The notes under the pieces were generated by a model, which was not told the origin of the DNA, made no database searches, and saw only the letters and a list, made by a program, of their open reading frames with translations. Positions 43,679 to 46,961 of a stretch of 64,000 nt of DNA are shown in pieces. Numbering within the stretch: the stretch's first letter is position 1; each line of letters starts with the position of its first letter. The position numbers and the translations under genes are program-made. This stretch comes from Parafrankia sp. EUN1f (lineage in GTDB: Bacteria; Actinomycetota; Actinomycetes; Frankiales; Frankiaceae), in contig NZ_ADGX01000042.1 of NCBI RefSeq assembly GCF_000177675.1, positions 1-64,000 on the forward strand, read 5' to 3'.

Positions 43679-44707
43679 CTAGCGACCGCGCCGCGGCGGC
43701 CGCGGTTGCGCCTGCCGGGCGACCGGGATCCGGGCGATCAGGTCGGTGACGATCCGCGCCGCGATGTCGTTCGTCGGCTCACCGGAGAGCGTGATCTCCG
43801 GGTGCAGCAGGAGGCGGTGCGCGAGCACCGCACTGGCCAGTGCCTGGACGTCGTCGGGGAGCACGTAGCCGCGCCGGTCGATGGCCGCGTGTGCCCGCGC
43901 GGTGCGGATGAGGTGCAGGGCCGCCCGCGGTGACGCCCCCAGCGTGATCTCGGGATGTCGCCGGGTGGCGCCGACCAGGTCGACGATGTACTGCCGGACC
44001 TCGTCCGAGACGTGCACGGAGCGGACCAGGCCGGCGAGCTTGGCCACCTCGGCCGCGCTGGTCACGGGCGTGACACCGGTCAGGGGATCGTTCTGCCCGT
44101 GGTTGTCGAGCATCGCCAGCTCGGCGGCGGGGGAGGGGTAGCCCATCGAGACCCGGGCGGTGAACCGGTCGCGCTGGGCCTCCGGCAGCGCCCGGGTGCC
44201 GTCCATCTCGATCGGGTTCTGGGTGGCGATGACCATGAACGGCGGCTCGAGGCGGTAGGTGACACCGTCCACGGTCACCTGGTGCTCCTCCATGCATTCC
44301 AGGAGCGCCGACTGTGCCTTCGGCTCCGCACGGTTGATCTCGTCGCCGACCACGATGTTCGCGAAGACCGGGCCGGGCCGGAACTCGAAGTCGCGGGTTC
44401 CCTGGTTGTAGACGCTCACCCCGGTCACATCGCTCGGCAGCAGGTCCGGGGTGAACTGGATCCGGCGGACCCGGGCGTCGATGGAGCGGGCGAGCGCCTT
44501 GGCCAGCATGGTCTTGCCGACGCCGGGCACATCCTCGATCAGCAGGTGACCCTCGGCGAACAGGACGACCAGCGCGGTGCGGATCACATCTGACTTGCCG
44601 TCGATGACCGTCTCCGCGGAGCGGCGCACCCGGTCGGCGACCTCGGACAAGTGATCTATGTCGGCCGCGGGGTCATGCCAACGCAGAACTCCCGGCTCCG
44701 TCACCAC
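43679..44707 (-). CDS. MoxR-family AAA+ ATPase
   Basis: Second MoxR ATPase (342 aa). Walker A is IEDVPGVGKTMLAKALARS, Walker B VGDEINRAEPKAQSALLECM, sensor ATQNPIEMDGTRALPEAQRDRF. The GTG at 44707 has GAGGGAGG 8 bases upstream. Together with the DUF58 and transglutaminase genes it forms a module parallel to moxR-DUF58-VWA at 17.5-20.7 kb. It is divergent from mraZ across 538 bp. Confidence 0.88.
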   Translation of the reverse strand: MVTEPGVLRWHDPAADIDHLSEVADRVRRSAETVIDGKSDVIRTALVVLFAEGHLLIEDVPGVGKTMLAKALARSIDARVRRIQFTPDLLPSDVTGVSVYNQGTRDFEFRPGPVFANIVVGDEINRAEPKAQSALLECMEEHQVTVDGVTYRLEPPFMVIATQNPIEMDGTRALPEAQRDRFTARVSMGYPSPAAELAMLDNHGQNDPLTGVTPVTSAAEVAKLAGLVRSVHVSDEVRQYIVDLVGATRRHPEITLGASPRAALHLIRTARAHAAIDRRGYVLPDDVQALASAVLAHRLLLHPEITLSGEPTNDIAARIVTDLIARIPVARQAQPRPPRRGR

Positions 44708-45245
44708 GGTGTCGGCCTCCCTCGGATCTCGTGCCCTGGCCGCTGCCACCGTTACGGGAATGTTGTCCCGTGGCGTCCCGGTCGTCTCACGGGTCCCCCC
44801 GCTACACCGCCCGGACATGACCGCGACGTGTCCTGCTCCCCTCTGAGTGTGACATCCGTTCGGGGGTGCCCGGGGCGACTGGTCGTCGTTGGTCCTTGCT
44901 GGGCCGGCGGTGGGTGATGGAGCGCGGTCTCGGCTCGCACCGTGATGCGCATTCGTAACATTTGCCGATTGCGCTCTGTGATCAATCAATCGCCAATTAG
45001 CCGCTTTATACCACCTTCGTAGTGGCGAACAACCGCTGCTCCCGTCCGGAGTGGGGGAGGTGGGGCCTAGCGGGGTGTCATGGGGGTGTGAGGTGGGGGG
45101 GAGTGGAGTAGAGTGGCGCGCAGTGGGGGAGGGGAGCTTGCGGCGCCTGTAGTCGACGTCTGGTGAACAGCTGCCGTCGGGTGAACCAACCGTCGTCTCT
45201 GGTGGCCGGGGCGCGTCTCGGTCGGAGCCAGGCGGGGAGGTGCCG
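44708..45245. other. 538-bp divergent control region of moxR2 and mraZ
   Basis: No gene supported. It holds an A/T-rich island at about 44945-45030, unusual in this genome, with a TATACC at 45007-45012 that could be a -10 for the division operon. It also has the four-box array at 45093-45126. The mRNA leader before mraZ would be about 200 nt. Confidence 0.5.
45093..45126 (+). promoter_or_regulatory. MraZ operator, four GTGG boxes at 10-bp spacing
   Basis: GTGG occurs at 45093, 45103, 45113 and 45123; the last three are within AGTGG. MraZ is known to bind direct repeats of this type (three or four boxes one helical turn apart) upstream of its own gene. The array lies about 120 bp before mraZ, so MraZ likely autoregulates the whole dcw operon. 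A further GTGG-rich stretch lies near 45050-45065. Confidence 0.75.
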
Positions 45246-45677
45246 GTGTTTCTCGGCAGCCACACGCCGCGGCTGGACGACAAAGGGCGACTGACGCTGC
45301 CGGCGAAGTTCCGGGAAGAGCTGGAAGGGGGGCTAGTGATCACAAAGGGGCAAGAGCGTTGTCTCTACGTGTTCCCTCTGGCGGAGTTCGCCCGGATCAG
45401 TGAGTCCCTTCGTACGGCTCCGGTCACGGCAAAGGCGCTCCGTGACTACAGCCGTGTGTTCTTCTCCTCGGCGGCGGACGACGTTCCCGACCGGCAGGGG
45501 CGGATCACTATTCCCCCTGCGCTACGCACTTATGCCGGGTTGTCCCGCGAGTGTGTGGTGAACGGCGCCAACACCAGGGTCGAGATCTGGGACTCCACCC
45601 GATGGGAGACCTATCTGGCGGACCAGGAGGAGACCTTCGCCGAGCTGTCGGAGGAGGTTCTGCCCGGAGTCATCTGA
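45246..45677 (+). CDS. mraZ: Transcriptional regulator MraZ
   Basis: SpoVT/AbrB-like DNA-binding protein that represses the dcw operon. It begins [22 protein letters not shown]. The second half repeats the fold ([20 protein letters not shown]). 143 aa is normal. Start GTG 45246 because GGGGAGG lies 5 bases before it; GTG 45240 would overlap that site. Its own boxes are upstream. rsmH follows after 300 bp. Confidence 0.92.
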
Positions 45678-45977
45678 GTTTTCGCAGGCACGATGTGACC
45701 ATCGGTCGTCTGTCGAGGTCTCCCCCCGCTCCCACCGGGCGCCACTTCCCCGGCGTCCGGCGGAACGAGCGGGGCGGGACCTGGGTGTACGACCCCATCG
45801 GCCGTTCCCCTGCCGAGCCGTTCCCGTCGTCGGCGCGAACTCGCGGCATCCCTGACCCGTGCACCGTGAGATGGAAAAGGATCACAGCGCGCCGGCGGCG
45901 GCGCGCCCGGCGTCACCTGAACCGGCGTGACCGTCCGGGGGATGTTCCAGTTTTCGACAAGGGCCGAGGGGTTGGCA
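45678..45977. other. 300-bp mraZ-rsmH gap
   Basis: I see no gene, strong promoter or terminator here. The sequence is GC-rich; the short ATG/GTG frames lack codon bias. The gap is longer than usual between these two genes. Confidence 0.4.
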
Positions 45978-46961
45978 GTGGACGTCACGCACACGCCGGT
46001 GCTGACCGAGCGCGTCGTCGAGCTGCTCACTCCCGCCATGCAGGCGCCCGGGGCGATCGTGGTGGACACGACCGTGGGGCTGGGTGGGCATTCCCTGGCC
46101 CTGCTTGAGGCATTTCCGCGGGCCCGGCTCATCGGGCTTGACCGCGATCCGCGCGCCCTCGCCTACAGCCGCCACCGGCTGGCCGACCTCGGTACCCGGG
46201 TCGATCTGGTGCACATGGTCTACGACCAGCTTCCGGACGCCCTTTCCGGGTTGGGCGTCGCCGAGGTGAACGGGATTCTGTTCGACCTCGGTGTCTCCTC
46301 CATGCAGCTCGACATGGATGAACGCGGATTCGCTTACTCGCGGGACGCGCCGCTGGACATGCGGATGGACCAGGAGCGCGGGCCGACCGCGGCCGACGTG
46401 CTTAACACCTACGATGTCGACTCCCTTACCCGCATCCTGCGGAACTACGGCGAGGAGCGCTTCGCCCGCCGGATCGCGCAGGCGGTGGTGAGCGCGCGGC
46501 AGACGGCCCCGTTCACCACATCCGCGCGGCTGGTGGACCTCATCCGCGATGCCATTCCGGCGGCGGCCCGGCGCACCGGCGGGAATCCCGCGAAGCGAAC
46601 CTTCCAGGCATTGCGTATTGAGGTGAACACCGAACTGGATGTGCTCGAGCGGGCGCTGCCGGCCGCATTCGACGCGCTGGCGGTGGGCGGCCGGCTGGTG
46701 GTGCTGTCCTACCACTCCCTGGAGGACCGGCTGGTGAAACGCTCGCTCGGGCCGCGGGCGGTTCCAGCCGTACCGCCGGATATGCCGGTGATTCCCGACG
46801 AGGCCCGCCCGACGCTGCGGTGGCTGACCCGTGGCGCCGAGCCGGCGTCCGACCAGGAGATCGAGCGGAACGCGCGGGCCGGATCCGTCCGCCTGCGTGC
46901 CGTGGAACGCGTGGCGGCCGAGCCGGGCCGTGCACAGAACCCGACCGGAGGTGTCCGATGA
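45978..46961 (+). CDS. rsmH: 16S rRNA (cytosine(1402)-N4)-methyltransferase
   Basis: Methylates N4 of C1402 in 16S rRNA using SAM. The 327-aa protein has [13 protein letters not shown] at the start, the SAM loop [23 protein letters not shown], and the conserved [22 protein letters not shown] at 45978 has GAGGGG 6 bases upstream. Its stop overlaps the ftsL start (ATGA). Confidence 0.95.

Follow-up and report, generated by a model that had tools for sequence, protein, structure and literature searches.

Four GTGG boxes interleaved with the putative mraZ promoter of Parafrankia sp. EUN1f form a probable MraZ operator

The four GTGG boxes found upstream of the mraZ gene of Parafrankia sp. EUN1f are best explained as an operator of MraZ placed over the dcw core promoter, where an oligomer of the protein would occlude RNA polymerase and thereby exert negative autoregulation. 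A probability of roughly 0.8 is assigned to this reading, which is founded on sequence comparison. An MraZ operator had been proposed in the first-pass annotation of this DNA and is well supported by the adjacent mraZ gene, by the conservation of the boxes and by their loss in relatives devoid of mraZ. The window, i.e. the whole stretch of 64,000 nucleotides that was analysed (contig NZ_ADGX01000042.1, positions 1 to 64,000), carries the boxes on its forward strand about 120 nt upstream of the true mraZ gene. The same annotation had described a fourfold GTGG with an exact 10-bp period, and this is borne out at all four positions (Table 1). Such an array is defined by at least three GTGG copies repeated directly every 10 bp, and four exact ones are present. 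When all the spacings from 5 to 20 were scanned in the region, a run of at least three GTGG was obtained only at 10. No hairpin better than those of shuffled sequences was detected in the box tract (z 0.21).

Table 1. Features of the mraZ region and their coordinates in the window
Feature	Coordinates	Strand	Remarks
-35 position, TGTGAG	45087..45092	+	not recognisable; TTGAC in most relatives
MraZ box 1 (GTGG)	45093..45096	+	exact in 22/22 own-family rows
MraZ box 2 (GTGG)	45103..45106	+	direct read, pattern search and own-family rows
Probable -10 hexamer, TAGAGT (class consensus TAnnGT)	45109..45114	+	conserved class register
MraZ box 3 (GTGG)	45113..45116	+	GT doubles as end of the -10 hexamer
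MraZ box 4 (GTGG)	45123..45126	+	near the expected transcription start, itself a predicted position
mraZ	45246..45677	+	ORF listed from GTG 45240; TIGR00242, PF02381
mraW-RNA-like element RF01746, between mraZ and rsmH	45700..45802	+	45.4 bits, E 1.5e-8 (permissive search)
rsmH (mraW), first gene after mraZ	45927..46961	+	TIGR00006, 309.6 bits

The most direct indication of the function of the boxes comes from a natural knock-out. In the class sample, complete genomes lacking MraZ are found mainly in a single family, designated f14, which we take to be Streptomycetaceae (Streptomyces kin), partly on the basis of the lack of mraZ. The mraZ-negative genomes outside f14 were left uncounted, being mostly incomplete, and those searched gave no rsmH. 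The MraZ-less genomes of the family of the window (G011 and G429) yielded no rsmH either, so that the knock-out comparison does not extend to the inside of this family. The f14 sample comprises 61 genomes from 17 genera, with MraZ present in 28 and absent in 33; these rows correspond to 60 rsmH-bearing genomes and G430, G606 being left out for want of an rsmH match. The f14 promoter was located by its -35 and -10 elements only and not by the boxes, upstream of mraZ or, when this gene is missing, upstream of rsmH; one letter, a T, is common to the -10 test and box 3. A promoter within one mismatch was obtained for 56 of the 61 rows. The rows dropped, all mraZ-less (G134, G584, G589, G598 and G600), display no promoter with at most one mismatch in 450 nt; that of G598 is found at 462 nt and is accompanied by eroded boxes (1, 0, 1 and 3 mismatches, respectively).

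The two groups of 28 genomes thus obtained are separated completely by the state of the boxes: all those with mraZ show at most one mismatch over the 16 letters of the boxes, and all those without it show 2 to 10. Box 1 is exact in 28/28 genomes with mraZ versus 0/28 without, box 2 in 28/28 versus 20/28, box 3 in 28/28 versus 3/28 and box 4 in 20/28 versus 3/28, and the box array is kept in none of the 28 mraZ-less genomes. An exact TTGAC is found in 28 of the 33 mraZ-less rows and in 26 of the 28 mraZ-bearing ones. The loss of mraZ in these relatives, in which the promoter stays and the boxes decay, suggests that the boxes serve MraZ. The RsmH tree implies three changes of mraZ state, of which two or more are forced by well-supported branches. 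As there are only two independent losses in f14, both with eroded boxes (sign test on independent pairs, p 0.5), the evidence from this family is suggestive and not statistically proven; the low Fisher value on the f14 counts treats related genomes as independent and is not usable as a probability. The losses concern all 10 genomes of genus g20 and the clade formed by g283, g284, g291 and g294. Among sister families possessing mraZ, f103 (1 genome) keeps boxes 1 to 3 and f104 (14 genomes) boxes 2 to 4.

Conservation in the presence of mraZ was assessed in the family of the window and in the class. Four exact boxes are present in all the 22 rows of the own family (Frankia kin), which represent 21 distinct genomes since L028 and L052 are one and the same, and when 12 sequences are aligned, conservation within the intergenic region is highest over the boxes. 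The closest named relatives according to MraZ are Frankia, Pseudofrankia and Candidatus Frankia, as judged from the best 80 of at least 579, a set biased to close relatives. The mraZ promoters of the class follow a common plan, TTGAC[C/G]-GTGG-n6-GTGG-nnTAnn-GTGG-n6-GTGG. Rows were registered on boxes 2 and 3 and on the TA, which was possible for 227 of the 233 rows and left 6 without registration; boxes 2 and 3 are therefore conserved by construction in the counts that follow. Four exact boxes are displayed by 116 of the 227 registered rows and at least three by 180. The 233-row count keeps the rows common to two genome collections (L028/L052, L050/L157, L081/L212 and L106/L190). Box 4 is often deviant and is exact in no row of families f19, f98, f16 and f4. 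One genome of family f11, G339, gives two mraZ matches (L183 and L184), both of which have a separate set of four exact boxes and a TTGACC.

The first-pass annotation had held that three boxes are common in well studied species, and E. coli does have three. Its companion statement, that four boxes occur in fewer species, fails in the class, given the 116 four-box rows; a four-repeat site has also been published for Burkholderia cenocepacia. The four-box arrangement is ordinary for the actinomycete class.

The rarity of the pattern was considered as well. A single exact match to the four-box pattern is present in the window; when as many as two mismatches are tolerated, the pattern produces four matches, three of which overlap at the array, compared with 0.31 expected from 100 dinucleotide shuffles. 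When the surrounding 300 nt were subjected to 20,000 dinucleotide shuffles, no four-box array was generated; a three-box array was generated in 3 of 5,000. In the whole 9.35-Mb genome (396 contigs), the exact four-box pattern is found once and a reversed control pattern seven times. Rarity was consequently rejected as an argument: in a G-rich genome where the reversed pattern is the commoner one, the bare four-box pattern is not special and constitutes no proof. A more specific form, made of three boxes with GTA in the second spacer and allowing up to two mismatches, is encountered genome-wide only at the array site, its reversed control giving 0, and no other MraZ target site was found in the genome with this specific pattern. 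The bare three-box pattern has 15 other matches in the genome. The significance of the array rests on its place and conservation, not on the bare pattern.

As regards place, the boxes are interleaved with the promoter elements. In the class layout, the 16 nt between -35 and -10 are taken up by boxes 1 and 2, the last two letters of the -10 element (TAnnGT) are also the GT that opens box 3, and box 4 is close to where transcription is expected to start. At the locus of the window, the position 16 nt upstream of the -10, where a TTGAC of the sigma-A type would be expected, reads TGTGAG, and a generic consensus promoter scan found no promoter there; the promoter itself is for these two reasons a putative one. 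A -35 within one mismatch of TTGAC is found in 0/21 own-family rows versus 151/205 other rows. As judged from these alignments, the Frankia family has kept the boxes and lost a recognisable -35, a loss that is not unique to it since families f19, f86, f16 and f4 also possess the boxes and lack TTGAC. A G-rich repeat, GGGGTGT n4 GGGGTGT, is located at 45072-45089 just before box 1 and is conserved in several own-family genera; it occupies the place of the -35 of other families and is a possible activator site. In the mraZ leader, a near-identical pair, CGTCTGGTGAAC (45157-45168) and CGTCGGGTGAAC (45175-45186), is also observed, its members being 18 bp apart.

The gene downstream of the array is a genuine mraZ. 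TIGR00242 matches 45240-45677 with 126.9 bits (cut-off 98.35), the Pfam MraZ model PF02381 matches as well, and the solved structures related to the protein are the MraZ entries 1n0e, 9qlr, 9qlg and 9sx6. The GTG at 45246 would be preferable as a start to the GTG at 45240, because it is a better fit to the ribosome site GGAGG at 45236-45240. Beyond mraZ, the gene order is rsmH, ftsL, a peptidoglycan transpeptidase gene at the ftsI position, murE, murF, mraY and murD. The reading frames of mraZ and rsmH are separated by a gap of 249 nt that contains the mraW-RNA-like element. It was detected by a permissive search: its score is below the gathering score of 50, at which RF01746 gave no match in the window, and the element exceeds this score in the relatives L025 (55.9) and L032 (77.0). 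The mraW RNA is a further cis element of this operon, situated upstream of rsmH, and differs from the boxes in being an RNA structure and not an operator. Owing to its presence in the gap, the operon probably has a second control point. The earlier claim that the whole cell-wall operon is under its own first gene is accordingly retained in part: autoregulation is plausible, and 'whole' is too strong a word with such an element between mraZ and rsmH. Internal promoters may also be present in the operon.

On the opposite strand, divergent genes encode a MoxR-type AAA ATPase, a DUF58 protein and a transglutaminase with a TgpA domain. The ORF listed for the MoxR-type ATPase (43679-45343, minus strand) extends across the mraZ promoter as far as mraZ itself; translation must actually begin well within the listed ORF, perhaps at a GTG near 44705. 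The motif TTTATACCA at 45005-45013 is conserved in several Frankia relatives and reads TATAAA on the other strand, where it could possibly be the -10 element of the divergent MoxR/DUF58/transglutaminase operon.

Comparison with the MraZ systems already described reveals a common core with a different placement. According to the available text of PMC8475190, MraZ represses its own dcw operon in E. coli and division genes in M. genitalium. In E. coli K-12 (NC_000913), three GTGGG boxes start 8 nt past an apparent -10 element (TTGACA, 18 nt, TAAACT). This site and that of the window are alike in their GTGG(G) direct repeats, 10-bp period and location upstream of mraZ; E. coli, however, has three boxes downstream of the -10, whereas the actinomycete array is shifted upstream into the -35/-10 spacer. 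The MraZ of B. cenocepacia binds a fragment with four 7-nt repeats separated by 3-nt spacers downstream of the -10 (PMC7761207, available text). Four repeats and a 10-bp period are common to this site and to the window, but the B. cenocepacia site overlaps the transcription start, whereas boxes 1 to 3 of the window are upstream of the expected start. In Mollicutes, the site in the mraZ promoter is made of AAAGTG[T/G] direct repeats (Fisunov et al. 2016, as cited in PMC8475190), which have the GTG core in common with the window boxes and differ from them in the flanking letters. These repeats are described in the accessible part of PMC8475190 as unique in the M. genitalium chromosome, just as the specific form of the window pattern is unique in its genome.

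The simplest mechanism would be promoter occlusion by an MraZ oligomer. Starting from boxes whose register with the -10, conservation and erosion upon mraZ loss appear from comparison, we infer that the MraZ of the window binds them and represses by occlusion around the predicted start site. With a 10-bp period the boxes follow one another along the same face of the helix, where the oligomer would contact them in turn; once bound, it would cover the -35/-10 spacer, the -10 and the surroundings of the start and keep RNA polymerase off. As a result, mraZ would repress itself together with rsmH, ftsL, ftsI, murE, murF, mraY and murD, with a reach along the operon extending as far as transcription continues.

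A doubtful alternative is that MraZ binds the boxes but activates, or both activates and represses, as befits a family promoter without recognisable -35. The four boxes are indeed perfect in the own family in spite of the total absence of near-TTGAC sequences from its 21 rows, and overexpression of MraZ in M. gallisepticum was accompanied by more FtsZ (PMC8475190, available text). However, the overlap of box 3 with the -10 favours occlusion, the protein acts as a repressor in E. coli and M. genitalium according to the same text, and the other box-bearing families f19, f86, f16 and f4 are also devoid of TTGAC.

It is improbable that the boxes are part of the promoter, contacted by RNA polymerase or sigma, and not a repressor site. 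Their fixed register with -35 and -10 would agree with such a role, as would the survival of box 2 in 20 of the 28 f14 genomes without mraZ. Nevertheless, the 28 of 33 mraZ-less f14 rows with exact TTGAC keep the -10 too while boxes 1, 3 and 4 decay, and the own family retains the boxes without the -35; these reverse situations indicate that promoter and boxes vary separately. Equally improbable is the possibility that the G-rich tract acts as a DNA G-quadruplex of the mraZ promoter and not as a protein operator. The box tract of the window is G-rich, and the text available of PMC11796246 describes, for S. aureus, a G-rich region located downstream of the mraZ promoter and containing a G-quadruplex motif, together with conserved motifs of this type in other mraZ promoters. 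A G-quadruplex needs neither the T of GTGG nor a strict 10-bp period, yet conservation extends beyond the G-tracts to both of these (boxes 1 to 3 are exact in 28/28 mraZ-bearing f14 genomes), and the boxes decay along with the loss of the mraZ gene. The G-tracts of the other mraZ promoters could in turn be MraZ boxes. Least probable of all is the binding of a different cell-wall gene regulator, for instance the response regulator MtrA, which binds the mraZ promoter in Dietzia (PMC9602371), since the state of the boxes matches the presence of mraZ without exception in the 56 f14 genomes counted and no GTGG-type motif is named in the accessible portion of PMC9602371. The presence of MtrA at the Dietzia promoter implies that further regulators may act at that of the window.

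A broader proposal combines an actinomycete operator built into the core promoter, where a single oligomer bound to the four boxes would simultaneously seal the -35/-10 spacer, the -10 and the start, with a Frankia-family MraZ that would be a dual regulator, exerting positive and negative autoregulation and aiding polymerase at a weak promoter. The second part is prompted by the loss of the -35 in the Frankia family while the four boxes and the third spacer stay frozen, and the combination is considered unlikely. A literature search, conducted mostly among sources outside subscription journals, retrieved no article dealing with actinomycete MraZ sites that have four boxes or are embedded in the promoter, and few MraZ studies in the phylum. 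The operator reading and the class layout give a defined prediction, namely four boxes interleaved with -35 and -10. The mraZ-loss comparison provides a control for the proposal that G-quadruplexes govern mraZ promoters. With at least two losses of mraZ, this natural experiment would tie a widespread and little-understood regulator to its actinomycete site.
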